From the NCBI GenBank assembly GCA_030062745.1, contig CP099852.1, positions 20,978,266-21,042,265 of the forward strand: a stretch of DNA of 64,000 nt, written 5' to 3'. This DNA is from Capitulum mitella. Lineage: Eukaryota > Arthropoda > Thecostraca > Pollicipedomorpha > Pollicipedidae. The first letter of the stretch is position 1. Every line of letters begins with the position of its first letter. A program made the translations under genes and the position numbers. The notes below the pieces were generated by a model. That model was not told the origin of the DNA. It did not search any database and saw nothing but the letters and a program-made list of their open reading frames with translations. Shown piece after piece: positions 5,078-54,803 of this stretch.

Positions 5078-5577
5078 NNNNNNNNNNNNNNNNNNNNNNN
5101 NNNNNNNNNNNNNNNNNNNNNNNNNNNNNNNNNNNNNNNNNNNNNNNNNNNNNNNNNNNNNNNNNNNNNNNNNNNNNNNNNNNNNNNNNNNNNNNNNNNN
5201 NNNNNNNNNNNNNNNNNNNNNNNNNNNNNNNNNNNNNNNNNNNNNNNNNNNNNNNNNNNNNNNNNNNNNNNNNNNNNNNNNNNNNNNNNNNNNNNNNNNN
5301 NNNNNNNNNNNNNNNNNNNNNNNNNNNNNNNNNNNNNNNNNNNNNNNNNNNNNNNNNNNNNNNNNNNNNNNNNNNNNNNNNNNNNNNNNNNNNNNNNNNN
5401 NNNNNNNNNNNNNNNNNNNNNNNNNNNNNNNNNNNNNNNNNNNNNNNNNNNNNNNNNNNNNNNNNNNNNNNNNNNNNNNNNNNNNNNNNNNNNNNNNNNN
5501 NNNNNNNNNNNNNNNNNNNNNNNNNNNNNNNNNNNNNNNNNNNNNNNNNNNNNNNNNNNNNNNNNNNNNNNNNNNNN
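5078..5577. other. Assembly gap of exactly 500 N
   Basis: All bases are N. The round size suggests a placeholder of unknown true length. The left flank ends inside dispersed repeat copy 1, and copy 2 shows what should follow on that side. The right flank lies in the middle of a non-LTR open frame, whose 5' part is therefore missing. Confidence 0.98.
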
Positions 5578-8500
5578 CACACACGCAGCACCAAGATCAC
5601 AATCAGCCATCGACCTCTCTCTTGTTTCCAGTGACATATCTGCAAAATTTACGTGGCGCGTACAACCGGACAGATACTTTAGTGATCATTACCCCATACA
5701 CATCCAACTGCATAACACTCCCTCAGGCCAACATGATTACCACTTCCTACCCAGGTGGAACATTAAACGCGCGGACTGGCCATCCTACAACATGCAAATT
5801 GACGCTAGTCAGCCTCCAAATTCGACGCCTCCGCTTGCACAACTTTTGGACACAATTCTTCAAGCAGCACACAACAACATTCCTCACACCTCACGACCAC
5901 ACGGCCGCAGGCACGCGGCTTGGTGGTCGGACGCCTGCCAGAAAGCAGTAGCGATCCGGCGCCGAGCCGAGCGAGTTTTTAGACGCTGTGTCTGCGGCCC
6001 GCACGAGGAGGCGGCTAGACAGGCACGTACGCAATGCAAACGCATAATTCTTGCAGCAAAACGCAAATCCTGGGGACAGCACAGCAACAATTTCAACAGA
6101 TTCACGCCTCTCTCAAAAATCTGGAACCTAGTACGCGCCTTTTCTACGAAATTTTCATCCCCCAGAGCTTTCCCACAACTGACTATTCAGGGCATGACAT
6201 ACTCAGAACCGAGCGAGGTCGTGACACAGTTTGCACAGCACTACGCGGCAGTCTCTGCCAACCCACAGTACAACCAAACCACACTCACGCACTTACATGC
6301 GACACTGCAGGCATGCCATTTCCACTCAGACAACACCCAAGGATACAATCAACCATTCTCCCTCGCAGAACTCACACACGCCCTCAACAGGTGCGGCAAC
6401 TCCTCGGTAGGACCGGATCAGATTGCGTACCCCTTTTTGCAAAATCTCTCTGAATTCGGTCAATCACAACTGTTGAGTGCATTAAATAAAACCTGATTAA
6501 ACGAAGACTTTCCGGCCACCTGGTCTTCCTCTACCATAATTCCTATCCTCAAAGCTGGCAAACCTCCCACTAACCCTGCCAGTTACCATCCCATCTCACT
6601 CACCAGCTGTGCTTGCAAACTTTTCGAGAAAATGGTCAACGATCGGATTAGAATCTATCTAGAAACAAAAAAACAATCTGTTTTTACCAAAATGGCTTTC
6701 GATCGCGCCGCTCCACGGCCGATAGCCTTCTTCACATCAGGGGAGTGGAGAAGTCATCGCCTTATACAGGATATTTTAAGACGACTGACAGCGTTAGATC
6801 GACATGGAAAGAGAGTGACGTTCTGCTGGATTCCAAGCCACGTGGGGATATCTGGCAACGAACCAGCCGATGCAGCCGCGAAGCGTGCGTCACGCATGTG
6901 TGTCACGCGACGAATGTCATTGCCTGCCAGGGACTTTTATCGTGTGTTTTCGTCGTATATGTATGACTTGTGGCAGCGTGAGTGGGATGCGCTCGGTCCG
7001 AATAAGCTTAAAATTATTAAACCCCTCCTAGGAACTTGGGCCTCAAGTTCACGCGAAAACCGGCGAGAGGAGGTTATTCTCTGCCGTTTGGGCCTAGGTC
7101 ACACACATGTAACGCATCACCATATGTTGAAGGGCGAAGAGAGAGGGATGTGCCCCCGCTGCAGTGAGCCCCTCACTGTGCACCATGTGCTGATCACATG
7201 CAATGGTTTGATTTCAGAGCGTTTGCGGCACTTTGGGCACAGTGCGACACCTCGCACTTTGCTGGATTTGCTGGGTGATGAGTCTCGTTTTATAGAGACG
7301 GGACAGTTGTTCCGGTTTTTATCGGTTGTCGGTTTTTCTGCGGTGTTTTCACGCTACTAGTCACATGTGTTTTATTTTGTGTATGCGGTTGTAAGCAACT
7401 TTTTGTCTTGACATAATTGCGCTATATTACGCCGTCGGATTATGTTAATCGTCGTGACTGTTGTTAATGGAGCTACTTAAAGAAGTTATGGGCGCCGAAT
7501 GACCCTGCAGTCGGTGCGCCCCTAAGCCCCAATAACCAACCAGCCTTCTCCAAATCATTCACTCCATCCAAAATGGCTTTTCTCACCGAGAGGAGACTGT
7601 TGCACTGTTTCTGGACCTAAAAGCCGCCTTTGACAGTTCACCGTTCTGCTGTCTTAATTAAATTACATCGCGCAACTTTCTTCGCTTAAGAACATTCACA
7701 GTGCGTTGCGGCAACGTCCACTCCCCTTCTACCCTTCAGGAGCAGGGCTTGCCGCAAGGCAGCGTACTTTCCCCTACTTTATTCCTCCTCATGATCAATG
7801 ATGTCGCGGACGATCTCCCAACCATACACCCGGGCTTCAAATACTCACTCTACGCCGACGACATAGCGGTGTGGTTCACCCATCCTAGCGTCGACCGCGC
7901 CAATACATTTGTGCAGCTTGCACTTGATTCAATCCAGAAATGGTGCAACCGGTGGGGCTTGCAGGTTTCTGTTGCTAAATCAGCCACGGTAATTTTTTCA
8001 CACTTCCCGTAACATACAACCTGTATCCCCTTTGCGTCTCAGAGGCGAAGACATCCCTATCCACACTCATTTCAAATATTTAGGCATCATATTAGATCGC
8101 AAACTCACATTCAGTGTCCACGTTGCCGACTTACGACGTTGTATTCGCCGCCTGAACATTTTACGATGTATTTCCGGACAGGACTGGGGGGCCGACAGGC
8201 GCACTCTCCTGCGTCTCTGCATCGCTCTAATTCGATCGATCCTAGAACATAATGCGTTTCTTTTTGACAATATCTCTTCTTCCCTTGCTTCGGTTCTGGA
8301 GGTCATCCAGAACCGAGCACTTCGAGTCATCACTGGGGCCTTTGCTACGTCCCCGTGTGAAAATCTCCGGGCCGACGTTGGCATTCCTTCTCGCTCACAT
8401 AAGCGCACTTTACAACTCATGAAATACTCCATCCGAGTTCATCCCACCCACAATCACCCATCGCAACACATTCTGACACACACTCAGTGGCGACAACGAC

Positions 8501-12500: not shown

Positions 12501-12617
12501 TGTCATGTATGAAATCCGGTGCAACTTCCAGCACCACGTGCGGCGCGTGCACCCGGAGCAGGGGCGGCAAGTGCGGCAGGAGCTGTTTGCGCGCACCTTG
12601 ATAAGTGAAAGCGACAG
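12501..12617 (+). CDS. Exon 1 candidate: zinc-finger-like segment
   Basis: The frame gives MYEIRCNFQHHVRRVHP followed by helix-forming residues and ends at a GTGAGC donor. The F-x2-H-V-R-R-V-H spacing resembles the end of a C2H2 or BED-like finger; the upstream cysteines would be in an earlier exon not found. The exon ends in phase 2, whereas exon 2 starts in phase 0, so either a small exon is missing or one boundary is wrong. Confidence 0.4.
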
Positions 12618-15600
12618 GTGAGCGCGTCGCTGAAATGATCCACCCGATCCGGAAACCTTCACCGCCGACCCAGCGCGCCCGAAAAAATTATCCTCGTGCT
12701 GCATTTGAAATCCAGCGAGTTGTGCATGCGTGCCGGTGTCCAGAAGACCATTGAGTTCCAAATTTCCGAGCATAGCTGTAATCTGAATGTCTGAAACGTC
12801 GCGGGTGGCTGCTGCACCGTGAAGCTACTCGTGCCTCGTCTGCAGATTCCCATGCAGGTATACCCTATGTGGACGTCCGCGCCGTCGGCTGTCAGGTGGC
12901 CGCGCGGAAGCTGTTGACTGCGAATTGTGACGCGCCAACCTTCACGTGCGCCGCAGTGCCTGCGAGCCATGACGGAGGCGGCGGCCAGGCAACTCTCAGC
13001 TCCTGTGCACGAGAAGACCATCGATCGCATCAACGTGAGTGAGCGCCGATTGGCTGCTGCCGTCTTGGCTCCTCCTGTTGTCTACGAATTGCCAGCGGTT
13101 TTGCATCGCATTTGTTACGGCCATGGGGTCCACACCAGACGACAGACAATAACGGCGCGCGTCAGTGATCGGCGCCGCGACACGCCTGAATGCCTGAGCT
13201 CGACGCGCTGACACGCACGTGCCGTAGTGCGCCTTGTGCCTTGCCTCGTGCAGCTGCTCCGTGAGCTATCTGGTGGTCCGCGAGAAGGCGGCAGCTGACG
13301 ACCGGCGCGTGTTCGCAGGAAGCGATTCGGGTGCGGCGCCGTGCACAGGAGCTGGAGGAAGAGGAGGCGCACCTGCCCGGCGAGCCGCTGCCGGAACGCG
13401 TGCTCGCGGCGTCTGTGCGGCTGGACGGCGCCGATAACGATCTCTTCCGGCACACGGGCACGGTGAGTCGCACGCGCACCTGACGGCGGTGGTAATGGTG
13501 TCGCCTTTCGCGACAAGCTTTTGGCACGGGTAACCGGCCGCGTGACGAAAAAGCGTCGTCGAGCCTGGGCACTCGAGCCAGCCCGCTTGCGTACAGACGG
13601 CCGGCAGTGTCCGCGGTCCCGCGAGACGAGTCGTCACGCTTTGCGCGAGCGGCACCTCGTGCTGAAAGGCGATTCTCTGTTTTCAGTACCGGGAGCAGCA
13701 GCTGGCCAACAGCCAGGCGCTGAGCCAGCTGCTGCGTCTGGCCGACGTCGGCGGCGGCGACGACGACTGGCGCCGTATGCAAGTGAGCACCGACGACTGG
13801 CGCCACATCGTCTGCGACCGGACGTCGACCGCAGCGGTGAGTCGACCGCCACGGCAGCGGGCAAATGCAGTTGCGTTCAGTTTTTCTCACGGCACGATAA
13901 TCCCCGTTTGAACAGGGGCGGTGTCCGCGTCACGCCGAGTTTTTGCGTGCGCATTCTGTGCGCGGCGTGACTGTATTGCGCGCCGCACCGCGGCCGCGGG
14001 CCGGCCGTTTTCCGAGACGTCGCTGTTCTGCCGACAGGTGTTTGGCGCGATTGCCGCAATGCTCAGGGCCCAGCCCTTCAACGGCCTGCGGCTGATCAAG
14101 GCCCTGCAGCATTTCTGCAGTCGCGTCGCCCAGTCGGCGTGGGCGCTGCGGTCGGCGGCCGTGACGCGCCAGTTCGCGCAGGTGGCGGAGGGCCTGGTCG
14201 GTCTCAGGAGAAAGCACAAATCCGGTTAGTGACGAGCGAACGTCGAGCTCCGACGAGCGATCGGAATAGTCCGGTCTCCGTCGAGGTGTTGCGTCGGCCA
14301 TTCTGCGTTGGCCGTGGCCATTGGAAACGCCGCGCGCAGAGGGTGCGGATTCCGCCCCCCCCCTGCCGGGAATAGGGTTAAATTTGTCTTCACCGCTGGC
14401 ATCCGAAAACTGGGCTTAGAAAACGCAGCCATTTCCTCGGATAAAGGCCCTCTGATAAATGCCAGTCGTTTTCAGATGACACTGACAATAGTTTCACTTC
14501 TGCCTCTGATCATACATCGAATGACATGACACGTAGCAAAGCAGGCCTGGTACAGACGGACGGGTACTTGTCGTGCAGCTTGCATGATTACTGCCATGAA
14601 CAGTGGTTCAGAAATGCACCATGAGACCTGTCCTGCGGGCGTTGTTACTTTTACTTGCATACGGTGCTCACTACGTGCGTTTAACGTGTCGTGACGTCAG
14701 AGATTCCTTGAAGGCTGTGGTTTCTTTCGCCCGAAATATTCCTTGTGTGTGTCGCGTGGGTCCATGTGATAACAACTCGGTGTCTGCGACTGATAGCTCG
14801 ACCTCGTCTGACCTCGCTTAGTAGGATATGATGCTGCTTTAATCCGCAATGTCTGGCGTGCATACGATCCGGAACAACGCGGGGATTCATCTGCCGCGTA
14901 TTTGATGTTGCCAGCTTTTTTCGCTCAGGAGCTAATGCATTTTGCCGTTCTGAAGCCGAACTGAAACAACACGGCGCTTTCGCAGAGATCGACCAGGCCA
15001 TGGCGCGCCGGCAGGACGCCAAGCGCGACCCGCGCCTCCAGCTCGGCCTGGAAGAGCGGGTCGCCATTGAGGACGTCTGCCGGCGCTTCTTCCAGCGGCA
15101 CAGCTGGCCGGAGCCGCCCACCGCGCCGTCCAGAGACCTGGCCGTCAGGTTCAGGGAGTAAGTGTGACGATGTCGACTGTGCGCGCCATCCGGCCGCCGG
15201 TGGGCGCACATTCGTTACCCGTTTTGTGGTATCGCCGGCTTGCGCTGCGCGGATCGCCGGTGCGTTCGACGCGGACAGCTGGCGCGGCGGCAAACGGTGA
15301 TCAATAGAGCGGCCATTGCGCCGCGCTCGTCGACCGATCGCCGACCAATGGCCGCCCGCCATGGACCGCGGCGCTCTCCGTGTGTGTGTGTTTAATGCTG
15401 CTCGGTGTGCGTGCTTCAGGATGCTTTACATCGCCATCTCCAACCTGAGCGGCCTGCGGACGGGCGCGGTGGCCGGCACAACCCTTACGGAAATGGCCGC
15501 AGGGCAGGTACGTGTCTCGACGCGCGGTCCGTGTGCTTTGTCGCAGGCGCGCGCCGCAAACGGATGCAGGGCTCTCGCGTGTCGACGGCGGCGGCATCAC

Positions 15601-18266
15601 GCAGCGTAATAACCGTCTTTCCCTTGGCAGATGCGCGAGGTGGACGGCGAGGTGAGCTGGTCGTGGTACACCACGGCCAGCAAGACGCTGGGCAGCCGCG
15701 GCAGAGTGCTCGTCGTGGTGACCGAGTGGGTCTGGAGGGCGCTCCAGTACTTCGTGGGCGTGCTCCGACCCCTCCTGCTGAGCCAGACGGAGCGCTCAGG
15801 TGAGAGTTCGCCAAACGGCAACGGGCGGCGTCGTGTAATCAGTGTGCTGTTCTTCACTTGAAAGCCGTCCCGCGCGAGTCACTCGAAAGCCGGCCGTCGC
15901 GGGCCTCAGTTCCTGCGCGAACGGTCGCACGCCCAACGGCTGCCGGACCCGGCGGCGGCGGCAGGGGCCGGCGACGGTGGCAACATGAGGCTGGCATTGG
16001 GCAAGCCGACGCGCCGCGGCAGCGGGGCCGAGAGACGGTGTACCCTGAGCTGCGTGTGACCCGCCGTCGCCCTCGCTCCGTGCTGCAGCCGCAACGCAGG
16101 CCGTGCTGCCCGGCGTCCGGACCTCGACGTTCGCCCTCGACGCCACCCTGCAGGCTGCCGCCGCCCAGCTGGGGCTGGGGCCGGCGCCCCGGCTCGTCGG
16201 CCGCTTCATAGCGAGCCGTAACAGGGCTTTCCAGAACATCATGGTGAGTGGACAGGCATGAATGTAACAGCCGCGTTTTATGCACCAGATGTGCGTGGTA
16301 CGTCCTCTGTCTGTGCGTTTGCGTGTTTGCAACACGTCTTTCTACGATACCGTTGATTGGCAGAAAAAAACGTGCATTGCGCTGCGCACTTTCTTGCGCG
16401 TTCAGTGATCCACGGCAGTTTTCGGAAATGCGTTCCGCTTGTGCGCGTGCGTGCGCGGTTGTGTGCCAGTGTTCGGATGTCGTTGAGCTGGCGTCGCAAA
16501 AGCCGCATTCGCAGTTTTTCCGTACGCATGGTTCGTCCTGACTGACACTCCAGAGCCGACTGCCGTGGCCGTGACACGCCTCAGGAATGAACGGTGGGCT
16601 TCGCTGTTGACAGGATCGCCAACTCCGTGCCGCCGGCCGTCTGCCGGGCTTCAGCGCCGCCACGGCCGCTGAGGCCCGTGCGCACTCCACAGAGACGGCC
16701 GAGCGGCACTACAGCGCCCACGGCCACCGGGAGCGCGTGCATGGGTACGCCTCCGCCTTCCGGCGCGTGGTCCTGCAGGTGAGCTCGGTGGTGTCTGCTG
16801 CCCGTTGTCACCAGTGGTCAAACTGTCAACGGGCAAAAGGACGAAACGCCGGCTACTAATCCGGGTCGTAATGGATCCATGGTTTTGTCAGCGGCAATGT
16901 CGTGCGCATTATGGCGGCAGCAGTGCTCTCCGTGACCAATGTCCTTTGCGTGCGGGCCGGTGTCTGACGTGTACCGTATCGCCTCACTGCCAACGGTCGG
17001 TCTCGGACTTTGCCCGCAGGAGGCTGCTGCTGTCGCAGAAGCCCCGCAGGAGACGTAGCCCGGCCCGTCCAGTGCCCCGGACCCCGTGTGGCTCGGCGGG
17101 AGTCCGGGGTCCTTCTCGGACGGGTCGGCCAGCCCGGAAGAACTTCCTGGTGGCCGTGATCACGACTCGCCGCAGCCCGCCGGCCCTCCGCCGCAGCCCC
17201 TGGTGTGGCCCGCCGGCCCGCCGCAGCCCGCCGCGTGGCCCGTCGCCGCCACCGTGGCGGCCGCCCGCGGTTGGGCAGCGGCCGCGGGCCCGCCGCAGCC
17301 CGGTTGGTTGGTTGGTTATTGGGGCTTAGGGGCGCACCGACTGCAGGGTCATTCGCAGCCCGGCCCCTTCGGCGTCCCGCCCCTGCCCGCTCAAGCAGCG
17401 CCGATGCCGGTTGCCCCGGTAAGTCAAAAGAACAACAGTCGTGAAGAAATCTCATGAAAGCGCTGAGAAAACGTTCTACCATTGGCAGACACAACATAAT
17501 TTTCTTCAACCTCTCTTATGCGTGAGAAACAATGTATGAAGTGTTCATGTCATCATCTCTTGGTCGGTCTCCATTTGTGTGATGAACTACAACGTATACG
17601 AGAACCACACCTCAAGTCAAACGAAAAACAGACTATTGTCAGTGTCCCTGATGTTGACGTTAATGATTGTGTGTCGCCGGCAGCCACCAGCGGGAATCGT
17701 GCGATTCCCCACCGGTCCGGTGGTGGCGGTGGAGGAGGCGACCAGCATCAGGATCGTAAGTAGTGGTTGCAGGGAGCGGGGAGAATGCTCTGTACCGTGA
17801 GCCCTTTACCTACCCGTACCATATACCTACATACTGCATACCCATACTATACAGCGTACCATTAAGCGTTAATCACTGCCCGAGTCGAACCTTGCACCGG
17901 AGCGCGAGCGGTGATGTTGATGTCCGGCGTTTCGGCTTATGTTCCCAGATGGAGGCCCTGCAGTCTTATTATGAGGCTGCTCGGCTCGAGCAGGGGCTGG
18001 CGCCGGGTGACACTTACAGCAGCGGACAGCAGCAGCAGCCCGGCCAGCAGGCGGTCGTCGGTCGGCCCAGCGGGCGGCATTACGCCCGCTGGAGCCCGGC
18101 CGAGATGGCCGTCTTGCGCTGGCACGAGGAGGTCCAGCATCGCCTGGTGTCTCCGGACGGGCGGAGCTTCCGGAGCATGCGGGCTTTCCTCGTGCAGGCC
18201 GGGCTATACTTCAACTTCCGCCGGACGGAACGGCACTGGTACCGGCGGCGCCGGAGAGATAGGTAG
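12501..18266 (+). CDS. Multi-exon tyrosine-recombinase-like gene with zinc-finger-like start and Myb/SANT-like end
   Basis: Exons read: 12501-12617, 12957-13034, 13319-13462, 13687-13836, 14038-14224, 14986-15157, 15420-15507, 15631-15799, 16089-16243, 16614-16778, 17020 or 17059 to 17418, 17684-17755, 17949-18266. From exon 2 to exon 10 every junction is GT-AG and every phase matches, giving about 436 continuous codons. Features seen: NFQHHVRRVHP (end of a zinc-finger-like fold), acidic and helical middle exons, SNLSGLRTGAVAG (candidate box I Arg), TTASKTLGSRGR (candidate Lys hairpin), and HSTETAERHY (candidate His...Tyr box). Proline-rich and Myb/SANT-like segments follow. Animals carry Crypton-derived recombinase genes, and this fits such a gene by architecture; the assignment is by eye. 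Problems: exon 1 to 2 phases do not match, a TAG lies in exon 11, and the last exon ends in TAG where copy B has CAG. It could be a living, domesticated or recently lost gene. Confidence 0.55.
12957..13034 (+). CDS. Exon 2 of recombinase-like gene
   Basis: An acceptor CCGCAG precedes the 78-base exon, and a GTGAGT donor follows it. It encodes 26 residues including EAAARQLSAPVHEKTIDRIN. Phase 0 at both ends fits exon 3. Confidence 0.5.
13319..13462 (+). CDS. Exon 3 of recombinase-like gene
   Basis: The exon has 144 bases in phase 0, with acceptor TTCGCAG and donor GTGAGT. It encodes a charged helical segment starting EAIRVRRRAQELEEEEAHLP, probably coiled coil or a linker. Confidence 0.6.
13687..13836 (+). 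CDS. Exon 4 of recombinase-like gene
   Basis: The exon has 150 bases in phase 0, with acceptor TTTTCAG and donor GTGAGT. It encodes YREQQLANSQALSQLLRLAD and two acidic W-containing DDW motifs. Confidence 0.6.
14038..14224 (+). CDS. Exon 5 of recombinase-like gene
   Basis: The exon has 187 bases, enters in phase 0 and leaves in phase 1 at a GTTAGT donor. It encodes 62 residues predicted helical, including FNGLRLIKALQHFCSRVAQS, which could be part of the core-binding domain of a recombinase. Confidence 0.6.
14986..15157 (+). CDS. Exon 6 of recombinase-like gene
   Basis: The exon has 172 bases, enters in phase 1 and leaves in phase 2 at a GTAAGT donor. It encodes a basic helical segment, including LQLGLEERVAIEDVCRRFFQ, just before the catalytic exons. 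Confidence 0.6.
15420..15507 (+). CDS. Exon 7: candidate recombinase box I
   Basis: The exon has 88 bases, enters in phase 2 and leaves in phase 0. It encodes MLYIAISNLSGLRTGAVAG; the Arg at 15457-15459 sits where tyrosine recombinases have the box I Arg (G-x-R-x-x-E/G-strand). A homologous exon lies at about 33151-33237 in the third copy and keeps the Arg. Confidence 0.6.
15631..15799 (+). CDS. Exon 8: candidate Lys hairpin and helix
   Basis: The exon has 169 bases, enters in phase 0 and leaves in phase 1. It encodes WSWYTTASKTLGSRGRVLVV, resembling the beta-hairpin with the catalytic Lys (15682-15684) of tyrosine recombinases, followed by a helix ending VLRPLLL. A homologous exon lies at 33474-33581 with SAGKTLGSRGRVLIVV conserved. 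Confidence 0.6.
16089..16243 (+). CDS. Exon 9 of recombinase-like gene
   Basis: The exon has 155 bases, enters in phase 1 and leaves in phase 0 at a GTGAGT donor. It encodes TFALDATLQAAAAQLGLG and RFIASRNRAFQNIM. One of the Arg residues here may be the box II Arg, but the exact residue is uncertain. Confidence 0.55.
16614..16778 (+). CDS. Exon 10: candidate box II His and nucleophilic Tyr
   Basis: The exon has 165 bases in phase 0, with acceptor TTGACAG and donor GTGAGC. It encodes HSTETAERHYSAH. This fits the H-S-x-x-T-A-x-x-x-Y signature that ends tyrosine recombinase catalytic domains, with His at 16683-16685 and Tyr at 16710-16712. Confidence 0.6.
17020..17418 (+). CDS. Exon 11: proline-rich segment with an in-frame TAG or alternative acceptor
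   Basis: With the acceptor at 17019, the frame meets TAG at 17056-17058 after 12 codons. If the AG of that TAG is itself the acceptor (exon 17059-17418), the frame is open for 120 codons and phases fit both neighbours. The product is rich in Pro, Ala and Gly (GPPPQPLVWPAGPPQPAAWP). A 51-bp retrotransposon tail with a 9-bp duplication sits at 17304-17363 without breaking the frame. A truncated product ending at 17058 is the other possibility. Confidence 0.45.
17304..17354 (-). mobile_element. 51-bp 3'-end fragment of the retrotransposon, in frame in an exon
   Basis: The sequence is the tail and 3' UTR end of the family at 50734-57216 (same GGTTGGTTGGTTATTGGGGC start). The 9-bp target duplication GCAGCCCGG lies at 17295-17303 and 17355-17363. 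The other copies of this exon (near 23830 and 32185) lack the insertion. Insert plus duplication is 60 bp, so the reading frame is preserved and 20 codons are added. Confidence 0.9.
17684..17755 (+). CDS. Exon 12, 24 codons
   Basis: Acceptor GTCGCCGGCAG and donor GTAAGT flank 72 bases in phase 0, encoding PPAGIVRFPTGPVVAVEE and a short tail. In copies B (24078) and C (32435) the donor GTAAGT is changed to a CAAGC-containing sequence, so only copy A keeps a working splice site. Confidence 0.5.
17949..18266 (+). CDS. Exon 13: Myb/SANT-like domain exon
   Basis: After acceptor TTCCCAG the frame encodes 105 residues and stops at TAG 18264-18266. After a Gln/Ser-rich start come three putative helices: SPAEMAVLRWHEEVQHRL, RSFRSMRAFLVQAGL and RTERHWYRRRRRDR. 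The tryptophan spacing and basic third helix suggest a Myb/SANT-like DNA-binding fold; this is by eye. Copy B has CAG instead of the TAG, directly before GTAAGG, so the ancestral exon probably continued into the next one. Confidence 0.5.
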   Translation: MEALQSYYEAARLEQGLAPGDTYSSGQQQQPGQQAVVGRPSGRHYARWSPAEMAVLRWHEEVQHRLVSPDGRSFRSMRAFLVQAGLYFNFRRTERHWYRRRRRDR

Positions 18267-21534: not shown

Positions 21535-23532
21535 GGAGCGCGTGATCAAAGAAACTGTTGTGTGTCTTGTGGAAAGCCGTAAAGCCAACTGGCTCGACAT
21601 ACGATACGGAAACACAAAAACCAATGAGAAGTTCAATCGGCCATGCTTTACGATGTTAGCTGGCACGAAGGACGTCAAGCATTCCAAGCTTTATGCCACA
21701 AGGGCAATTACGAGAAAAACACTGATGCAGTTAAATAGGGGGAACTGTTAAACTATTACCCCTGGCCGTAGCCCTGGTGCAAAAAAGGGCAGCAGTGAAT
21801 ATATTCCGCGTTCCCATTGCCTTGACTCCTTTAAAGCGGACTGTGTCTGGTAACATTCGAAATCGTGCACTGAAAACAGGTCACGGCCAGATATCTCACA
21901 AGTGCCTAGCAGACTCCTGCTTCCTGGGACGCCTGCGATGGCGATGGCATCAAATCTTTAGTCTGCGGCATGCGGCAACATCGCATTGCCCAAAAAGTTA
22001 GACGAGATCCCCTTATTCTAAAGCCGGGAAATCGACTTCTCTTAAAAAGCGGATCAGTTGAAAGCCACCAAAGACAGTACGTTAGAAACAAAATGAGGGA
22101 AATGGGAAGACTTTTGCTTGGTCTTGAAAAAATAGTGGCAATCGGCTGCTTACAATGAAGGATTTTTTGACGCCTGGTAAGTATGATGAACTGGTACATG
22201 TAGTAAAAACAACTTCATTTCATAGCCTTATGAACAAATTTAGGACCCCATCACTAGATCCGAAAATTGGTCATAGCTTGAAACACATGGCAAAGCTGCT
22301 AATAGCAGAAGCCTTGATGCACGGAACCCCGGAACTTGAGCAGCCCGCTGAACAATTTATCCAGGTGTGTGAGATTGACTGGACCCATCAGGTTCCAACC
22401 ACAGCACTTGCCACCATGCACGAGGAAAGATGGAATAAGCCCCAGCTTCTTCCAGTTGCAAAAGATGCACAAAAAGCGCAAAACATTCTGATCGAAAAAA
22501 TGTGGGCAGCAAAGATAGCCAATAAAAATGGGGGATGCACCCAAAATGTTTTCAAGAGCTGGCTCAAGAAACACTAGCAAAAATTATTCCGTTCAACAGA
22601 TGGCGTCAGGGTGAGGTTGCACGCCTAAAAGTAACACCTTTCATTGAAAGACATACCATGAACTTCAATCCGATATTCTGGCTTCTCTTAGCAAAAGCGA
22701 ACAGTACCTCTGCTCATCTCTGACACGAGTTGTCACAAAACGTAAACGTACACGACTTGTACCGGTCCTGATGACAGCCGAAATGAAATCGTAGATGTAC
22801 TCATAGATGTAGATGTAGATGTACTCATCACGAAAAGAAACGGAGTTGTCAAGCGTAAAAGCAATCGTTACGTCCTCGTAAGCCCATACTCGCTGACCGG
22901 TGAACCGTTCCGTGGAAGTGATTCCATCAGGAAGTTTGCAATGCTCTGTGGAGCTCGGCACCCAATGACCCTTTGGTCTACTAAGCTTCGAAAGCAGATC
23001 GGAACACTGTCGCAAATTTTAAGTCTAAAGGAAAACGAGTTGGATTTGCTTGCGAGGTTCATGGGCCACAGCGTTCGGGTTCACAGGGCTATCGGCTATC
23101 GTCTCCCGGAGCAAGAATTGCAAATCGCAAAAATGGGAAAACTGCGTATGGGTCTCGATGGAGGGATCACTTCTTATGCAGGAAAAACGTCTCGATGGCA
23201 TCGAGATCTTTGAGTCTCAACGGCAGGATGGACATGGTGGTGACCACGACGACCCTTCTTTGCCCTTCTCAGCTAGTCAGTATCCAAGTGGTCCCCAAGC
23301 TATTGAAATCACTCAGAGTCGCTCCGATGACGGAAGCGTTTTTCTTCCCAAAAAGCGTGCTGGTAAAAAGACAGCTTGGCATGAAGCCGAAAAAGCAGAT
23401 GTCTTACGTCAATTCAGAACGAAATTGGATACCTTGACAACAACAAATACGGAGGAATGTGCAAGAGCGATCAGTTGTCCGTTTGACAAGAACGAACGTG
23501 GATGGACGTTAAATACTGCGTTTATAACATGA
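21535..23532 (+). pseudogene. Second tyrosine-recombinase-like gene, decayed (unit A)
   Basis: Pieces in several frames run in order. A finger-like CVSCGKP, a TAA stop at 21580-21582, then SQLARHTIRKH come first. REMGRLLLGLE follows (21970-22158). A helical domain comes next (22155-22577, KFRTPSLDPKIGHSLKHMAK and ALATMHEERWNKPQLLPVAK). Then come IIPFNRWRQGEVARLKV (candidate box I Arg), RTRLVPVLMT, and STKLRKQIGTLSQILSLKEN with FMGHSVRVHRAIGYRLPEQE (candidate box II, His and Tyr). The end is a basic GKKTAWHEAEKADVLRQF segment that may be SANT-like. Frameshifts near 22560, 22690 and 22780 are shared with unit B. An extra base near 23187 is private to A. The domain order parallels the upstream recombinase-like gene, but the sequence is a different subfamily. 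Confidence 0.6.
22785..22830 (+). repeat. Short GATGTA repeat inside the recombinase pseudogene
   Basis: GATGTA-type units recur at 22791-22826 and in unit B at 29132-29167. They lie beside the frameshift between the RTRLVPVLMT segment and the box II segment, so local repeat slippage may have caused that lesion. Confidence 0.5.
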
Positions 23533-23574: not shown

Positions 23575-23872
23575 TCCGGGCCCACAACCCTCTGGCCCGC
23601 CGCAGCCCGCCGGCCCACCACGTGGCCCGCCGGCTTGGCGCAGCCCTCCGGCCCACCGCAGCCCGCCGGCCCACCACGTGGCCCGCCGGCTTGGCGCGGC
23701 TCTCCGGCCCGTCGGCCGGAGGCCTGGAGCCACAGCCCGTCGGCCCGTCGCAGTTCGCCGCGTGGCCCGCCGCCGCTACCGTGGCGGCCGTCCGCAGTTG
23801 GACAGAGGCTGCCGGCCCGCCACAGCCCGGCCCGTCCGACGCCCCGCCCCAGCGCCGATGCCGGTCGCCCCG
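23575..23872 (+). pseudogene. Proline-rich exon, unit B
   Basis: Homologous to exon 11, ending at the same GTAAGT donor. A 13-bp loss near 23848 relative to unit A changes the frame before the donor. A tandem duplication of about 57 bp (GCCGGCCCACCACGTGGCCC start) lies at 23604-23715. No recombinase exons precede it, so it lacks the 5' part of the gene. Confidence 0.5.
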
Positions 23873-24077
23873 GTAAGTGAACAGAACAACAGTCCAAAAA
23901 TATCATCAAAGACCAAACAAAATGCATGCAGTGTTCCTATAATCATCTCTCAGTCCGTCTCATTTGTATGCTGAGCTACGAGGTATACAAAAACCACACC
24001 TCAAGTCAAACAAAACAAAACGATCGACCATTGTCGTGTCCCTGATGATGACGTTAACGATTGTGTGTCGCCGGCAG

Positions 24078-24212
24078 CCACCAGCGGAAACCGTGCCGTT
24101 CCCCGCCGGTCCGATGGTGGCAGTGGAGGAGACAACCGGATTCAAGCAGTGGTTGCAGGGGGCGGGGGACATGCTCTGTACCATGAGCCCGCCATTAAGC
24201 ATTAACTACTGA
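24078..24212 (+). pseudogene. Exon 12 homologue, unit B, donor lost
   Basis: PPAETVPFPAGPMVAVEE is encoded after the conserved acceptor. The donor seen in unit A is mutated, so the frame reads through to a stop at 24210-24212. The same loss is present in copy C. Confidence 0.5.
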
Positions 24213-24281
24213 CCGAGTCGAGCCTTGCATTTGAATGCGAGCGGTGATGTTGACGCCCGGCCGTTCGGATTATGTTCCCAG

Positions 24282-24589
24282 ATGGAGGCCTTGCAGCCTT
24301 ATTATGAGGCTGCTCGGCTCGAGCAGGTGCTGGCGCCGGATGACGTATACAGCAGCAGCAGCCCGGCCAGCAGGCGGTCGTCGGTCGGCCCAGCGGGCGG
24401 CATTACGCCCGCTGGAGCCCGGCCGAGATGGCCGTCTTGCGCTGGCACGAGGAGGTCCAGCACCGCCTGGTGTCTCCGGACGGGCGGAGCTTCCGGAGTA
24501 TGTGGGCTTTCCTCGTGCAGGCCAGGCTATACTTCAACTTTCGCCGGACGGAACGGCATTGGTACCGGCGGCGCCGGAGAGATAGGCAG
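24282..24589 (+). pseudogene. Myb/SANT-like exon, unit B, frameshifted
   Basis: A 10-bp loss in the CAG-rich part near 24355 shifts the frame relative to unit A and copy C. The downstream helices (MAVLRWHEEVQHRL and RTERHWYRRRRRDRQ) remain in another frame, and the donor after CAG is intact. Confidence 0.55.
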
Positions 24590-24883
24590 GTAAGGAACAG
24601 AACCATTGCGGCTGTGAATGTGTGTTCTTTTACAATTGAGCCCACGCGAATATTGTTCGCTTGCTTCCGAGAACAACAAAGCACTAGAATCCGTTAAAAT
24701 GTTCATTGGAACCCAGTAAGCGCATGACCTGTAGATGGTACATGACCGCGCCCCTAAAGAAAACATGACGAGATGAAGACGAGACAGTCTGACGGGAGAT
24801 TCCTTGGAAGTGCATTTTCACCATCAGACCTAACATTTCGCACTTTTACCCAGCCAGGGTCCTGAACAGCCGACGGTTGGCTT

Positions 24884-27834: not shown

Positions 27835-29905
27835 GCACCGAAAGGAGCGCGTGATCAAAGAAACTGTTGTGTGTTTTGTGGAAAGCCGTAAAGCCAACTG
27901 GCTCGACATATCATACGGAAACACAAAAACCAATGAGAAGTTCAATCAGCCATGCTTTACGATGTTAGCTGGCACGAAAGACGTCAAGCATTCCAAGCTT
28001 TATGCCACAAGGGCAATTACGAGAAAAACACTGATGCAGTTAAATCGGGGGAACTGTTAAACTGTTAAGTCTGGCCGTAGCCCTGGTGCAAAAAGGGCAG
28101 CAGTGAATATATTCCGCGTTCCCATTGCCTTGACTCCTTTAAAGCGGACTGTAACTGGTAACATTCGAAATCGTGCACTGAAAACAGGTCACGGCCAGAT
28201 ATCTCACAAGTGCCTAGCAGACTCCTGCTTCCTGGGACGCCTACGATGGCGATAGCATCAAATCTTTAGTCTGCGGCATGCGGCAACATCGCATTACCCA
28301 AAAAGTTAGACGAGATTCCCTTATTCTCAAACTGGGAAATCGACTTCTCTTAAAAAGCGGATCAGTTGGAAGCCACCAAAGACAGTATGTTAGTAACAAC
28401 ATGACGGAAATGGGAAGACTTTTGCTTGGTCTTGAAAAAATAGTGGTAGTCGGCTGCTTACAATAAAGGATTTTTTGACGCCTGGTAAGTATAATGAACT
28501 GGTACATGTACATGTACATGACATCAGTTCTGAGGCTATCAAACTTCATTTGATGAAGTTTGATAGCCTTATGAACAAATTTAGGACTCCATCACTAGAT
28601 CTGAAAATTGGTCATAGCTTGAAACACATGGCAAAGCTGCTAATAGCAGAAGCCTTGATGCAGGGAACCCCGGACTTTGAGCAGCCCGCTGAACAATTTA
28701 TCCAGGTGTGTGAGACTGACTGGACCCATCAGGTTTCAACCAGAGCACTTGCCACCATGCACGAGGAAAGATGGAATAAGCCCCAGCTACTTCCAGTTGC
28801 AAAAGATGCACAAAAAGTGCAAAACATTCTGATCGAAAAAATGTGGGCAGCAAAGATAGCCAATAAAAATGGGGGATGCACCCAAAATGTTTTCAAGAGC
28901 TGGCTCAAGAAACACTAGCAAGAATTATTCCGTTCAACAGATGGCGTCAGGGTGAGGTTGCACGCCTAAAAGTAACACCTTTCATTGAAAGACATACCAT
29001 GAACTTCAATCCGATATTCTGGCTTCTCTTAGCAAAAGCGAACAGTACCTCTGCTCATCTCTGACACGAGTTGTCACAAAACGTAAACGTACACGACTTG
29101 TACCGGTCCTGATGACAACCGGAATGAAATCGTAGATGTACTCATAGATGTAGATGTAGATGTACTCATCACGAAAAGAAACGGAGTTGTCAAACGTAAA
29201 AGCAATCGTTACGTCCTCGTATACCCATACTCGCTGACCGGTGAACCGTTCCGTGGAAGTGATTGCATCAGGAAGTTTGCAATGCTCTGTGGAGCCCGGC
29301 ACCCAATGACCCTTTAGTCTACTAAGCTTCGAAAGCATATCGGAACACTGTCGCAAATTTTAAGTCTAAAGGAAAACGAGTTGGATCTGCTTGCGAGGTT
29401 CATGGGCCACAGCGTTCGGGTTTACAGGGCTATCGGCTATCGTCTCCCGGAGCAAGAATTGCAAATCGCAAAAATGGGAAAACTGCGTGTGGGTCTCGAT
29501 AGAGGGATAATTTCTCATGCAGGAAAAAGTCTCGATGGCATCGAGATCTTTGAGTCTCAACGGCAGGATGGACATGGTGGTGACCACGACGACACTTCTT
29601 TGCCCTTCTCAGCTAGTCAAAATCCAAGTGGTCCCCAGGCTATTGAAACCACTCAGAGTCGCTCCGATGACGGAAGCGTTTTTCTTCCCAAAAAGCGTGC
29701 TGGTAAAAAGAGAGCTTGGCATGAAGCCGAAAAAGCAGCTGCCTTACGTCAATTCAAAACGAAATTGGATACCTTGATAACAAAAAACAAGGAGGAATGT
29801 GCAAGAGTGATCAGTTCTGAGTCCGTTTTACAAGAACGAACGTGGATGGACGTTACATACTGCGTTTACAACATGATAGTATGTACGCGTCCAAAAATGC
29901 AATAA
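27835..29905 (+). pseudogene. Second tyrosine-recombinase-like gene, decayed (unit B)
   Basis: This is the same gene as at 21535-23532, with shared frameshifts. Private changes differ: a TAG at 29315-29317 replaces the Trp codon of unit A, while the C-terminal 174 codons (29381-29905) are open without the extra base found in A. Box II reads KLRKHIGTLSQ here (Gln instead of His in A), and the later motif reads VRVYR instead of VRVHR. A 29-bp near-palindrome (ACTTCATTTGATGAAGT core) and a (GTACAT)n tract lie at 28500-28560. Confidence 0.6.
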
Positions 29906-32069: not shown

Positions 32070-32099
32070 AAACGTACACACAGCTAGCCGCCCGTCCTG

Positions 32100-32953
32100 A
32101 AACGCCCTCCGGTCTCCCGCAACCCTCCTCCGGTCCGGACCCACAACCCTCTAGCCCGCCGCAGCCCTCCGACCCGCCACAGCCCGGCCCTTCCGACGCC
32201 CCGCCCCAGCGCCGATGCCGGTCGCCCCGGTAAGTGAACAGAACAACAGTCGAAAAATATCATCAAAGACCAAACAAAATGCATGCAGTGTTGCTATAAT
32301 CATCTCCCAGTCGGTCTCATTTGTATGCTGAGCTACGAGGTATACAAAAACCACACCTCAAGTCAAACAAAACAAAACGATCGACCATTGTCGTGTCACT
32401 GATGATGACGTTAATGATTGTGTGTCGCCGGCAGCCACCAGCGGAAACCGTGCCGTTCCCCGCCGGTCCGATGGTGGCAGTGGAGGAGACAACCGGATTC
32501 AAGCAGTGGTTGCAGGGGGCGGGGGACATGCTCTGTACCATGAGCCCGCCATTAAGCATTAACTACTGACCGAGTCGAGCCTTGCATTTGAATGCGAGCG
32601 GCAATGTTGACGCCCGGCCGTTAGGCTTATGTTCCCAGATGGAGGCCCTGCAGCCTTATTATGAGGCGGCTCGGGCGGAGCAGGGGCTGGCGCCGGGTGA
32701 CGTATACAGCAGCGGACAGCAGCAGCAGCCCGGCCAGCAGGCGGTCACCGGTCGGCCCAGCGGGCGGCATTACGCCCACTGGAGCCCGGCCGAAATGGCC
32801 GTCCTGCGCTGGCACTTGGAAGTGCAGCAACGCCTCGTCTCACCGGACAAGCGGAACTTCCGCAGCATGTAGGCCTTCCTCGTGCAGGCCGGGCTCCATT
32901 TCAACTTCCGATACACCGAGCGGCACTGGTACCGGCCTACACGCGCCGGCGAG
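32100..32953 (+). pseudogene. Third partial copy of the proline-rich and SANT-like exons
   Basis: Proline-rich exon end 32100-32229, exon 12 homologue from 32435 with lost donor, and SANT-like exon 32639-32953. The Gln-rich part is intact (no 10-bp loss), but TAG at 32870-32872 replaces an Arg codon in helix 2. The last helix is changed to TERHWYRPTRAGE before a GTAAGA donor. Confidence 0.6.
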
Positions 32954-33150
32954 GTAAGAGGGTCAGGAACAGAAACATTGTGGCTTTAGATGTCTGATGT
33001 ATCACAATTCAGAGCATGTGGAAATATTGGTTGCTTGCTTCCTGGAAAAACGGTGTACTTGAATTCGTCCGCTCGTTCATTTCACCACGATTGTCGTATG
33101 ATCTTCAGCTGGTATGACTGTGTCCCTGAAGAAAGGATGACGGACCAAAC

Positions 33151-33581
33151 ACCATAAATGTCGCCATCTCCAGTCTCAGCGGACTGCGGACGGTGACGGT
33201 GGCCGGCAGCATGTTGGGCGGCCTGGCCACCGGCCAGGTAGGTGACGTACGGCCGTGTTGTCAGCGCGCGTCGCAAATGGATGCAGCGCCGTCTTTCCGG
33301 CCGAGACGAACGCTTCCGCACCCGGCAACGTTTGCAAACGCATCTCGTCTTCGGATCACTGTCCCTAACAACGGTACCAGTTAGAGGTGGCGAAACAGAC
33401 AAAACTCTCATGCCAAACCGCGTCTGGCCGCCGGCAGCACAACACAGCGCAATGTCCGTGTGTTGCTTCACAGGTGCGCGAGACAGACGACGGTGGAAAC
33501 CGCTGCTTGCGGTACACCTCGGCCGGCAAGACGCTGGGCAGCCGCGGCAGGGTTCTCATTGTGGTGATCGAGTGGGTCTGA
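33151..33581 (+). pseudogene. Extra copies of recombinase exons 7 and 8
   Basis: Exon 7 homologue 33151-33237 (SSLSGLRTVTVAG, donor GTAGGT) and exon 8 homologue 33474-33581 (SAGKTLGSRGRVLIVV) lie after the third SANT-like exon, so exon order is scrambled relative to the main gene. The exon 8 copy ends in TGA (33579-33581) within the helix. No exons 9 or 10 follow. Confidence 0.65.
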
Positions 33582-33599
33582 AGCGCGATCCGACGCCTC

Positions 33600-34779
33600 C
33601 TCGTCAGTAACACGGGACCCGGAGGTGCGAGCACAGTTCCTGCGCCCGAAGGCGGCGACTTGTAACCTGTTCTTAATCAAAAATCAATGTACTCAATCAA
33701 TGTTCTTAATATTCGCCAGCGGCGGGCGTCACTCATACCAGCGGAACCGGCGTGAGAGCCGGATGAGAAGAGGAAAACATTCGGACGGCTGTTGTTACAC
33801 AATGCAACGCATGGAAATGTTTGCCGGTTGGTTCCCAGAAAAACGACGCACTGGCAAGTAAGCACTCGTTCACTCAAGTTCGAGCTCTTCCCCGCAATGG
33901 AGCAAGCAGACATGTGTGCGCAAATAAAGATGTCCAGAAGACCAGTGATTCGAAAACGAAAGAGAACGCTTTGCCATCAGGAAAGAAAAACGTAATGGTA
34001 GCAAGCAATGGAAACGATGACAAAGACGAGCAGCGACCAAGACGTCGACAGCATATATCGTGCGGACTTGAGCGGTGCAATCACAAGCCACTTCTGATAA
34101 GCAGGATGACGAGCTTCAAGCAGCAGAACCGCTACCTTCGCCGCTGAGGCAGCCACAGCAGCCGCCGTCGCCGCAGCCGTCGGCTGTGCAACTGGTCGCA
34201 GAACCAGTGCCGGAGGGGTTCAGTACTTTGACTCATGCAGCCTGTGTAAAGCGACTTGAATGTCACCTTTGTTCATGAGCTGGCTTTCCAAGAAATTGTT
34301 TTATTGAGAGCTGGAAATGTGCAAAAGTGTTTAATGCTTGAAGTCGAACAGAAATGCGATCACCGAAATAAAGCTGAATTTGCAATGCTGTACAGTGTCC
34401 TATATTCGTGCGCGTCAGTGGTGGCAGAGCTGGCTGGCGACGGCAACGTGTCGAACTCGTGCGGCAAGCAAGAAGACGTGCTGCAACGGCGTCAGGCAGC
34501 GCGGCTGGCTCTCAAGAAATTTCATTGTCTTTGTGTACAAGGTTTGTACACGGGATGCAGGGTCCTATACGTCATGCATATTTGACACGTGCACTTTTCA
34601 CGGCGTCGTGCTTGGTGTGTTTGAAATGACTAGTCGCATGTTAAACACAGTGATGTCATTTCTCATTTGCACTTGCCTTATTGGAATAATGTCAGCAGCA
34701 CGCAAATACTGACCAGTAGGTCACCCAAGACGACTGACTACGGATTTCAGTCTAGGTCAAGTGGACCATATTTGCATCC
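33600..34779. other. Unassigned stretch
   Basis: Frames of 60-124 codons exist, but no family is recognised. A Gln/Pro-rich segment is encoded at 34108-34200. Confidence 0.3.
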
Positions 34780-39120: not shown

Positions 39121-39391
39121 GACTGAACTGAAGATCTGACCGACAGAACAGGCCTACGTCTCCTTATCGTCCCCAGACTGAACTGAAGATCTGACCGACA
39201 GAGCAGGCCTACGTCTCCTTATCGTCCCCAGACTGAACTGAAGATCTGACCGACAGAGCAGGCCTACGTCTCCTTATCGTCCCCAGACTGAACTGAAGAT
39301 CTGACCGACAGAACAGGCCTACGTCTCCTTATCGTCCCCAGACAAGAAGATCTGACCGACAGAACAGGCCTACGTCTCCTTATCGTCCCCA
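39121..39391. repeat. 55-bp minisatellite, five units
   Basis: Units start at 39121, 39176, 39231, 39286 and 39341, each beginning GACTGAACTGAAGATCTGAC; the last is shortened by 4 bp. Copies differ at only one or two positions, so the array expanded recently. Confidence 0.95.
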
Positions 39392-40259
39392 GGACGGTCA
39401 GTGCTCGCAAGCGGTGAGGATCAAGCGGTCGGCCAGCCCTCTCCAGGGGACCGCACCACGCACTGCAACCATCCCCTACAACATGACCATGGTGGTGGCC
39501 ACGTTAGGGACCGATGGTTTGAAGGACCATTTGCTGGATATTGTAGATTTGTCGTCATATCATGTAATTGCTTCAACAGCTAGCCAACTATTAGAAGCAG
39601 ATTTGTCGCACCTTTCATTCAGCGTCTGATTCACCTCAATTCGTTCAGTACATGCCTCGCAAGGAGCCAACAAAGTTCAAACATTAGTAGACTTCTGAGC
39701 GATCAGGAGCGGAAGATATTCGTAATGTACGAGTTTTCGTCTGCCTTTACGTTCAGGCGGGCTTCTACGTTTCCGGCGCGCGTGCGACATTTGCTGCAGC
39801 TGTGCGTTTCAGATAGAACTGTGTGCTGAGGCGTCCGAACAGGGCCGTGGTCCGAACTTTGCTCATTTGTATGTTTACCGGGCGTATGTTATTCATTGAC
39901 GTATGAAGACAGCAAGTATGATGGATTGACGAAGTAGCCGGACACTTTTTTAAACTTTTCTCAGCGCTAGGCACGCTGGAACATGTTTGAATGGGGAATG
40001 TTTCTGAAAAAGACGAGGCAAATATGAGGTAAGGTATTGCTCAGCAGTCCTAAGGTCAGGCCTATTTCGTGGTGACTTTCTGACCAACTGTAAATGATTA
40101 TTTCTATTAAAAAAGCTATATAATGCATGAGAATGCTGCATGAGTGTTAATTTTAAGATCATATAGGCCTATTGGTTTCAAAAAGCTGAAGTCCTTTTCA
40201 CTTTGGAAAGCCACAAACCTTTTGATTTTTTAGGAATGCAGGTCTACTGATTTTTGAAA
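39392..40259. other. Unassigned stretch
   Basis: A short frame (39414-39629) with MTMVVATLGTDGLKDHLLDI ends near a GTAATT and could be an exon, but nothing confirms it. Confidence 0.25.
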
Positions 40260-50921: not shown

Positions 50922-53900
50922 CTAGTAGCGTGAAAAAACCGCAGAAAAACCGACATCCAATAAAAACCGGAACAACTGTCCCGTCTCTATAAAACGAGAC
51001 TCGTCACTCAGCAAATCCTGCAAAGTGCGAGGAGTCGTACTGTGGCCAAAGTGCCGCAAACGCTCTGAAGTCAAACCATTGCATGTGATCAGCACATGTT
51101 GCACAGTGAGGGGCTCACTGCAGCGGGGGCACATCCCTCTCTCTTCGCCCTTTAACAGATGGTGATGCGTTACGTATGTGTGGCCTAGGCGCAAACGGCA
51201 GAGAATAACCTCCTCTCGCCGGTTTTCGCGTGAACTTGAGGCCCAAGTTCCTAGGTGGGGTTTAATACTTTTGAGCTTATTTGGACCGAGCGCATCCCAC
51301 TCACGTTGCCACAAGTCATACATATATGACGAAAACACACGATAAAAGTCCTTGGCAGGCAATGACATTCGGCGCGTCACACACATGCGTGACGCACGCT
51401 TCGCGGCTGCATCGGCTCGTTCGTTGCCAGATATCCCCACGTGGCTGGGGATCCAACAGAACGTCACTCTCTTTCCATGTCGGTCTAACGCTGTCAATCG
51501 TCTTAAAATATCCTGTATAAGGGGATGACGCGGATGGAAACACTTCAGCGCTAAAAGGCTACTCAGCGAGTCTGTAAAAAGTACGTAAAAACCATCGTCG
51601 CTTGCCTCAATGAAACACAGCGCCTTGTCGATAGCCACGAGTTCCGACGTATAAACCGATGCATGAGGTGGCAAAGTAAATGACCGAGTGTCAGGGCCAC
51701 ACACGAAAGCACAGCCCACACCAGCCTCCGTCCTCGATCCATCGGTGAAAGCAGTCATATGGCCATCGTAGGATGCCATGTGCTCCAGTGCTCTGCACCG
51801 TAACTCCTCCGGGGCCACGTCGCGCTTCTGGTTCTCAGCCAAAGACACGTCGACCACAGGGGACACCATTTCCCAGGGGGGTATGTCTAGATCGTAAGAA
51901 CGTGCCACGGACCTCAGTCGCACACCGCTCTCAATTAACAGTTCATGGACTCTCACACAGAAAGGAGTGGCTTTCAGAGATCGTCCGGTGCGAAAAAGGG
52001 CTATTGTGCTGGAAGAAAACACCGCCTCATATGTCGGGTGGTCGGGGAACTGAGCTAACTTGCATGCATACCGCAGCCCGAGCACCTTCCGTCGCAAAGC
52101 CAGGGGTGGCTCGTTAGCTTCCACCAAGATACTAGCGGTGGGAGACGTTCTGAAGGCACCCGTAGCAATGCGCAAGGCAGAGTTGTGCACTGTGTCCAAC
52201 GTACGCTTGCTGGAATCGCATGCAGAGTCATACACAAAACAAGCATAGTCCAACTTAGAGCGAATCAGGGATCTGTATAGACGGAGCAACGTCACTCTGT
52301 CCGCACCGTACGATGTACCTGCGACACACTTTAAAACGTTCAGTGATTTAAAACACTTCTCACGCAGCGATTTAAAATGGTCCCTGTACGTCAATCGTTT
52401 GTCAAATTGCAGTCCAAGAAACCGCACTACTGGCTCCGACGGAATCAGTTTCCCGTACAGTTGCACAGATAAAGCGGGACAGCCACGGCGAGAGCGGCAA
52501 AAGTGGCACGCAACTGTTTTTGACGTCGAAAACTGTTTTTGACGTCGAGAAACGGAAGCCATTTGCCAGGCTCCACTTCTCCAAGCGGCCGACGGCCAGC
52601 TGCAACTGCCTCTCCATCGAGATAGCACTGGACGCCTTACACCATATTGCCAGATCGTCGACGAACAGTGACCTTCCTACAGAGCGAGGCAGTCTGTCTA
52701 CCACATCGTTAATCATAATGGCAAAGAGTGTCACACTTAACACACCACCCTGAGGCACGCCGTTCACCTGCAGAAACCGGTCAGAAAAGTGCTTTCCTAC
52801 ACGAACACGGAAAAAACGGTCATCCAAGTAGTTCTGTAAAAAGACGCCCATACGACCACGAATACCTTGCCCAAAGGCCTTCAAGAGAATGCCGTGTCGC
52901 CACGTCGTGTCGTATGCACCCTCGATGTCAAAAAACACACCTCCCACATGACGTCGTTCCCGAAAAGCAACACGCACTGCTGTGTCTAGGGCTAAAAGGT
53001 GGTCCACAGTACTACGGTTTTTCCGGAGACCGCACTGAGCATTGTCAAACACGTTATTCTTCTCTAAAAACCAGGTCAGGCGGAGGTTAACCATCTTCTC
53101 CAAAAGTTTACACAAGGAAGATGTCAGAGATATGGGACGATAATCAAGAGGGTTTAAACCACTCTTGCCAGGCTTGCACAGTGGGAAGACGATGGCCTCT
53201 CGCCAGGCCAACGGGAACTCGCCACGGGTCCAAATCGCATTGAACATAGTCAACAGTGTCTCAACCGCGCAATGTGGAAGGTGTCGAAGCATATCGTTAT
53301 GCACTTCGTCTGGGCCCTCCGACACACTGCGCAGGGACGATATTGCTGACCTGAGTTCAGCCATTGTGAACACTTCGTTATACGAGTGCTGCTCAGAGGT
53401 ATAAAAGTTCACAGGCGACCGCTCACAGCGAGTTTTGTGACGCACAAACTCAGGATCGGCGCCGCCACCCCGGCAGCGCTCTGCGAGGGCGCGGCCGATC
53501 TCGTTGGCAACGTCAGCAGGGTGAAACACGTCATGGCCGTGCACGCGCAGCACGGGCAACGGCGCAGAGCAATGTCGGCCCCCTATCCTCTTGATGCGGT
53601 CCCAGACCTCCGAAGTGCGGGTGGCGCGGTTCAGGCCACCCACATACTCTCGCCATGACCGCCGTTTCGCCTCCAAGATAACACGGCGTGCCGAGGCCCT
53701 CGCTTGTCGAAAAGCGATCAAATTATCCAGTGTACTGCAACGATCGAATGCCCTGTAAGCTCGCCTGCGTGTACGAATGGCGTCTCTACACGCTTTCGTC
53801 CACCATGGCACTGGTGGGCGGCGGGGAGCACCAGATGTTTTGGGGATGCTTTGTCCGGCTGACTGCACGATCATCTCGGTAAATTCGTCCACCGACATCG

Positions 53901-54675: not shown

Positions 54676-54803
54676 TTAAAAGGGTCTTAAAACACAGCGT
54701 CCCGGGATATAAAAGAAGCATCAGCACCTGCAGGAACACTAAAACAGTCACTGCAAGTGCAAGGTTAAAGTGTTCAAAAGAAGTGGTCAGCCCTTTTGCA
54801 AGG

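Follow-up and report, generated by a model that had tools for sequence, protein, structure and literature searches.

A clustered, intron-rich gene family with zinc-finger and tyrosine-recombinase-like motifs in Capitulum mitella

A 64,000-nt stretch of Capitulum mitella contig CP099852.1 (C14:20978266-21042265, hereafter the window) raises the question of whether a spliced gene of many exons in this genome encodes a tyrosine recombinase. An original prediction had described such a gene, with a zinc-finger-like start, a recombinase-like core and, behind a proline-rich linker, a SANT-like tail. We analysed this gene, termed copy A, and searched the 477-Mb genome (16 contigs) for relatives. Copy A belongs to a locally amplified, clustered family of genes rich in introns and is itself partly damaged.

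Copy A and its paralogs

Nine exons of copy A lie on the forward strand between 12957 and 16778. All have AG/GT borders, their phases fit, and together they provide 1308 nt, or 436 codons, without a stop. The first methionine of the joined frame is encoded by the ATG at 12969 in exon 2 (12957-13034). Exons 3 (13319-13462), 5 (14038-14224) and 6 (14986-15157) are in phase and show coding bias, and exon 4 (13687-13836) is 10 codons longer than its counterparts in the paralogous loci L261, L262 and L263; exons 7 to 10 are described with the core below. The G+C content of the joined frame was 0.71/0.52/0.88 at the three codon positions, and the signal was present in each of the nine exons (third positions, 0.77-0.95; second positions, 0.46-0.60). 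The joined introns were flat at 0.59-0.61, with no codon-position period. Among second-order Markov sequences generated from the locus, 0 of 2000 were stop-free over the same length and 0 of 2000 reached the position bias of the nine exons, under a null without freedom of splice-site choice. Copy A is a genuine spliced multi-exon gene, chance being excluded. The predicted series of nine exons with matching phases and splice sites was thus borne out by the borders, the 436 open codons and the third-position G+C of 0.88.

In the genome, exons 2-7 produced 62 matches in all. Exon 6 matched nine places within 0.3 Mb (C14:20.82-21.12 Mb) and one place each on C12, C13 and C16. For the tail exon, exon 13, there were 22 match rows; 15 fall in C14:20.85-21.14 Mb, and two of these 15 represent the partial copy B described below. 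Of the copies listed, those in twelve stretches of 10 kb, three of 6 kb and one of 7 kb were read. All scored junctions (23 of 23) had AG/GT borders in L262 and likewise in L263 (23 of 23); in L261, 20 of 21 did. L262 and L263 (C14:21.09-21.12 Mb) form an inverted pair, 98.8% identical over 9.4 kb; in exon 6, L263 encodes Gln at a position where L262 carries a stop. On C15 at 10.42 Mb, L275 carries exons 12 and 13 (5538-6050 of that stretch) with no match to a core exon in the 5 kb upstream, which suggests that the tail may move independently of the core. No description of the family was found in the literature searched, including the accessible text of PMC3212892, PMC10871703, PMC9004415 and PMC3537659.

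The window holds three partial copies, all on the forward strand and absent from the original prediction: copy B (23585-24592), with exons 11-13 and a frameshift in exon 13; copy C (32087-32964), with exons 11-13 and a stop in exon 13; and copy D (33160-33614), with exons 7 and 8 only and a stop in exon 8. Because copy B sides with copy C to the left of about 24264 (74 sites vs 8) and with copy A to the right of it (89 vs 8), it is a hybrid produced by unequal crossing-over, with the exchange point inside intron 12, which separates exons 12 and 13. The family was copied as DNA, introns included, and its parts were exchanged by unequal crossing-over. A larger unit is also repeated: the region from 19.4 to 47.9 kb of the window has pieces in common with C14:3.80, C14:20.96 and C13:21.62 Mb, and the part at 44.6-46.7 kb occurs in five places on two chromosomes, with one further short match. 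The mutual matches of L272-L274 cover differing stretches, and the copies differ in their borders, some of these ends being the ends of the fetched stretches.

We then compared the copies for constraint, using the ratio of nonsynonymous to synonymous substitution rates (dN/dS) between paralogs of this one genome rather than across species. For copy A and L263, dN/dS was 0.20 over 425 codons (33 synonymous and 20 nonsynonymous changes; Fisher p 1.8e-8), and for copy A and L261 it was 0.26 over 399 codons. On exons 8-10 only, the values against L260 and L264 were 0.32 and 0.13, respectively; against the more distant remnants L267 and L272-L274 they were 0.32-0.42. Changes unique to copy A in exons 2-10 comprised 8 synonymous and 5 nonsynonymous ones (p 0.007). 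In the tail exon, dN/dS was 0.14 for copy A and L263 and 0.26 for copies A and C, and higher in other pairs (0.48 for copy A and L261; 0.90 for L261 and L264). In exons 2-10, and also in exon 13, changes of amino acid were less numerous than changes at third positions. The expectation of a dN/dS well below 1 therefore held, at about 0.2, for paralogs of the same genome only. Overall, copy A and L263 diverge by 3.4% in introns, 4.1% in exons and 8.2% at third positions.

The zinc finger and the C-terminal exons

Exon 1 of copy A is a remnant (12505-12618, forward strand): of a C2H2/BED-type zinc finger it retains the second half and lacks the CxxC half. Its donor is broken: the paralogs read TTG/GTAAGT or TCG/GTAAGT across the exon border, copy A reads TTG/ATAAGT at 12601, and the visible donor gives no in-phase join to exon 2. 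A complete CxxC-H-H finger is present in exon 1 of L260, L262, L263 and L267, where a C-x2-C motif (CPLC or CPIC) precedes the HVRR(V/T)H half and the exon closes with GTAAGT in phase 0, compatible with exon 2. The sister copy in L265 is truncated likewise, and its donor reads TTAAGA where copy A has ATAAGT. The finger is known by motif only; the best weak Pfam match of exon 1 was zf-BED, at E 0.15, below its cut-off. The predicted zinc-finger-like start is accordingly complete in four paralogs and reduced to its second half in copy A itself.

After exon 10, exons 11 (17020-17418), 12 (17684-17755) and 13 (17949-18266) continue on the forward strand in phase 0. Exon 11 is proline-rich and contains an in-frame TAG at 17056-17058. 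Exon 13 encodes the basic tail (coding part, 17949-18263) and ends with a TAG at 18264. An alternative acceptor at 17059 (YAG/CCC), right behind the first TAG, would hold the phase and bypass the stop, but its use is less likely because other AGs lie just upstream. Among six copies, the triplet at this position is TAG in four (copy A, L260, L261 and L264) and CAG in the near-identical L262 and L263. Since TAG is found in four of the six, the protein may end at 17056. Past this stop, exon 11 is loose, with dN/dS of 0.30-1.11 over 15 pairs.

The 3' end varies between copies. Exon 13 ends with TAG in copy A and L261 and with CAG/GTAAGG in L262, L263, L264 and copy B; beyond the point that matches window position 18711, L262, L263 and L270 continue with different sequence. 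An additional candidate donor and acceptor past exon 13 of L263 were noticed by eye. No gene intact from end to end was found among the copies read: the frame of L263 begins open in exon 1 and meets no stop before exon 11, but this exon is out of frame with exons 12-13. The pattern-based exon joins were partial: they missed exon 10 in all copies, which was taken separately, and, in L260, L261 and L264, the majority of the exons.

A single-sequence AlphaFold model of the tail exon had a mean predicted local distance difference test score of 57.3, with helices at residues 50-62, 77-84 and 90-104, and Foldseek returned no match to this model at E 10. Nothing exceeded the cut-off when the tail was compared with Pfam (best, DUF3653 at E 0.048) or with PDB chains (best E 0.16 and above). 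The Myb/SANT-like label remains an impression. A likeness of the tail to GCR1_C (PF12550) is an impression as well; unlike CryptonF, the tail had no Pfam match to this domain at E up to 10. Of the predicted proline-rich linker to a SANT-like domain, the proline-rich stretch, the basic exon and the shared phase stand, but the TAG at 17056, or else a poor alternative acceptor, precedes the tail.

The recombinase-like core

The putative catalytic boxes are distributed over four exons on the forward strand. Exon 7 (15420-15507) encodes box I, SGLRTG, with its Arg codon at 15457-15459; exon 8 (15631-15799) encodes the Lys box SKTLGS (Lys codon, 15682-15684); exon 9 (16089-16243) encodes SRNR, with the second Arg at 16223-16225; and exon 10 (16614-16778) encodes HSTETAERHY, with the His codon at 16683-16685 and the Tyr codon at 16710-16712. 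Their order is that of tyrosine recombinases and their spacing is R-34-K-84-R-30-H-9-Y. The expected R-K-(H)xxR-H-Y is present, except that Ser replaces the first His (S-R-N-R).

These residues persist in the paralog alignment. The box-I Arg was kept in 11 of 11 exon-7 rows, the Lys in all 11 exon-8 rows that reach it and the second Arg in all six such exon-9 rows. His and Tyr were both kept in 6 of 10 exon-10 rows; one or the other was lost in L265, L266, L267 and L268, the first three of which also carry a stop in exon 8. All five residues occur in each of the four loci read with complete exons 7-10, namely copy A, L261, L262 and L263, the last two being near-identical; L260 and L264 are without exon 7 and hence outside this count. 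On motif order, spacing and residue persistence, we lean slightly toward the interpretation that the core is a tyrosine recombinase.

Several results weigh against this interpretation or against the family as reconstructed here. The core matched no family or structure in Pfam, PHROGs, NCBIfam or PDB. According to hhalign, its similarity to 12 bacterial and phage recombinases was not significant, as 3 of 60, 13 of 100 and 59 of 100 shuffles reached the score; the best alignment, equalled by 13 of 100 shuffles, placed SKTLGS on the expected beta-hairpin Lys and left box I out of register. Scans for phage integrases gave mostly near-identical sequences, unsuited to a diverse profile. On the genome, PF00589 matched two places outside the copy A family, in an exon-by-exon search that is weak for short exons. 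The model works in this genome, since both places, L276 (C2:6019129) and L277 (C12:21030284), passed the cut-off; they have a GH-x8-Y type box and look Crypton-like. In a collection of 5.8 billion sequences, which includes animal-type retrotransposon proteins and from which spliced genes may be missing, 0 of 7992 scored candidates matched the joined 448-residue protein at E 1e-3 and 0 of 7998 matched residues 195-440 at E 10. Scanning IMG/VR with the core and with the tail also yielded no relative. A loose form of the motif occurred in 782 of 20000 shuffles; a strict form occurred in 0 of 20000, but this pattern had been derived from the query, and of 5 known recombinases it matched 0. Splice sites were mixed in L260 (AG/GT at 6 of 12 scored junctions) and L264 (11 of 13), where the seeding may be misplaced. 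Finally, when intron rates were stratified by CpG and base class, third positions of copy A and L263 showed 35 changes vs 16.7 predicted, and positions 1 and 2 were marginally below expectation (18 vs 29.3, p 0.052). Constraint is clear relative to third positions (p 1.5e-6) and weak relative to introns. The predicted recombinase boxes, then, fit in order and spacing but drew no support from Pfam, PHROGs, NCBIfam, PDB or hhalign; in particular, the likeness to bacterial and phage recombinases was not significant relative to shuffles.

Multi-exon tyrosine recombinase genes have been described in two crustacean whispoviruses and in unassociated decapod relatives, and majaniviral recombinases carry C2H2 fingers (PMC10871703). 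The crustacean genes share with the copy A family many exons in an arthropod-type setting, and the majaniviral proteins share a C2H2-type finger with a recombinase core, the finger here being known by motif only. The likeness is by description only, and the available text mentions no tail like exon 13. These proteins are the nearest precedent, and because multi-exon recombinases are known in crustaceans, the number of introns alone is not new. Recombinase-type enzymes of animals, the Cryptons, have been domesticated repeatedly (PMC3212892). As far as the accessible part of that source goes, animal Cryptons (CryptonA and CryptonI) have no C-terminal domain, and the domesticated animal recombinases described so far, the DUF3504 genes, have lost most residues of the catalytic tetrad. 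Copy A, by contrast, has an in-phase C-terminal exon, though behind the TAG at 17056, and its family keeps the residues; the likeness to both groups is of recombinase type, but without a PF00589 match here. The order of domains in CryptonF, a recombinase followed by a C-terminal GCR1_C DNA-binding domain (PMC3212892, accessible part), resembles that of copy A.

The window contains further repeated sequences. Two decayed copies, 96% alike, of a second open reading frame family with MGHSVRVHRAIGYRLPE lie at 22128-23532 and 28436-29905; we take this family to resemble another recombinase-like family, and two pieces of it had no match in Pfam. On the minus strand, 50922-56474 is a retrotransposon whose first open reading frame encodes 556 aa of CCHC type; its second is broken, close to a tandem duplication of 20 bp (52512-52553), into two frames that overlap. 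Relatives, up to about 1240 aa in length, contain domains for endonuclease, reverse transcriptase and RNase H and fit an animal host. Part of the element recurs at 1-1781 with 98.9% identity. A 55-bp tandem repeat at 39121-39392 has five copies with 97% matches.

Competing explanations and their meaning

The best reading of the locus, which we regard as evenly poised, is a locally amplified zinc-finger, recombinase-like gene family of which copy A is partly decayed. The finger and the R-K-R-H-Y core would bind DNA, and the protein or its ancestor would break and reseal DNA at specific sites by way of a covalent phosphotyrosine; a long form would gain a further DNA contact from the basic tail. 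Copy A, without the finger and the exon-1 donor, would start at the ATG at 12969 and end at the TAG at 17056, giving 444 residues. A plausible competitor, although somewhat short of probable, is that the core is no tyrosine recombinase: the family would be of the BED/C2H2-type zinc-finger kind, would carry a helical domain not yet described and would probably act as a DNA-binding regulator, the boxes having arisen by chance in an Ala/Arg-rich protein. The failed profile tests and the weak zf-BED match of exon 1 speak for this, but the order and spacing of four boxes, with K-T and H-x8-Y at the expected places, and the fact that loss of His or Tyr accompanies other decay speak against it. About as tentatively, one may hold that copy A is merely a recent pseudogene and that only paralogs such as L263 work. 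Its half finger, broken donor, TAGs at 17056 and 18264, and the loss, at 18711, of its similarity to L262 and L263 on their 3' side fit that view; the skew of its unique changes toward synonymous ones does not, and the TAG at 17056, being shared by four of six copies, may be a normal end.

We consider it unlikely that the copies are insertions of a present or former mobile element with introns, whether of Crypton type or akin to the multi-exon recombinases of crustaceans. Remnants on C12, C13, C15, C16 and elsewhere on C14 speak for such an element, as do the dispersed pieces of the 19.4-47.9 kb unit and the five places of its 44.6-46.7 kb part. However, most intact copies lie within one 0.3-Mb cluster, copy borders differ (with the reservation about fetched-stretch ends given above), neither terminal repeats nor empty sites were established, and copy B is explained by unequal crossing-over. 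The domestication that the original prediction raised as a possibility drew no clear support either, the family being locally amplified with decayed copies. At the other extreme, the family might encode a host-run, still active zinc-finger site-specific tyrosine recombinase, its catalytic residues under selection, perhaps acting on its own cluster; this is quite improbable.

Should the core prove not to be a recombinase, a zinc-finger gene cluster would be left, absent from the literature searched and with a clear record of unequal crossing-over. Should it prove to be one, an intron-rich, locally amplified family that keeps all five residues would exemplify either the domestication of a recombinase or the gathering of introns by a mobile element.

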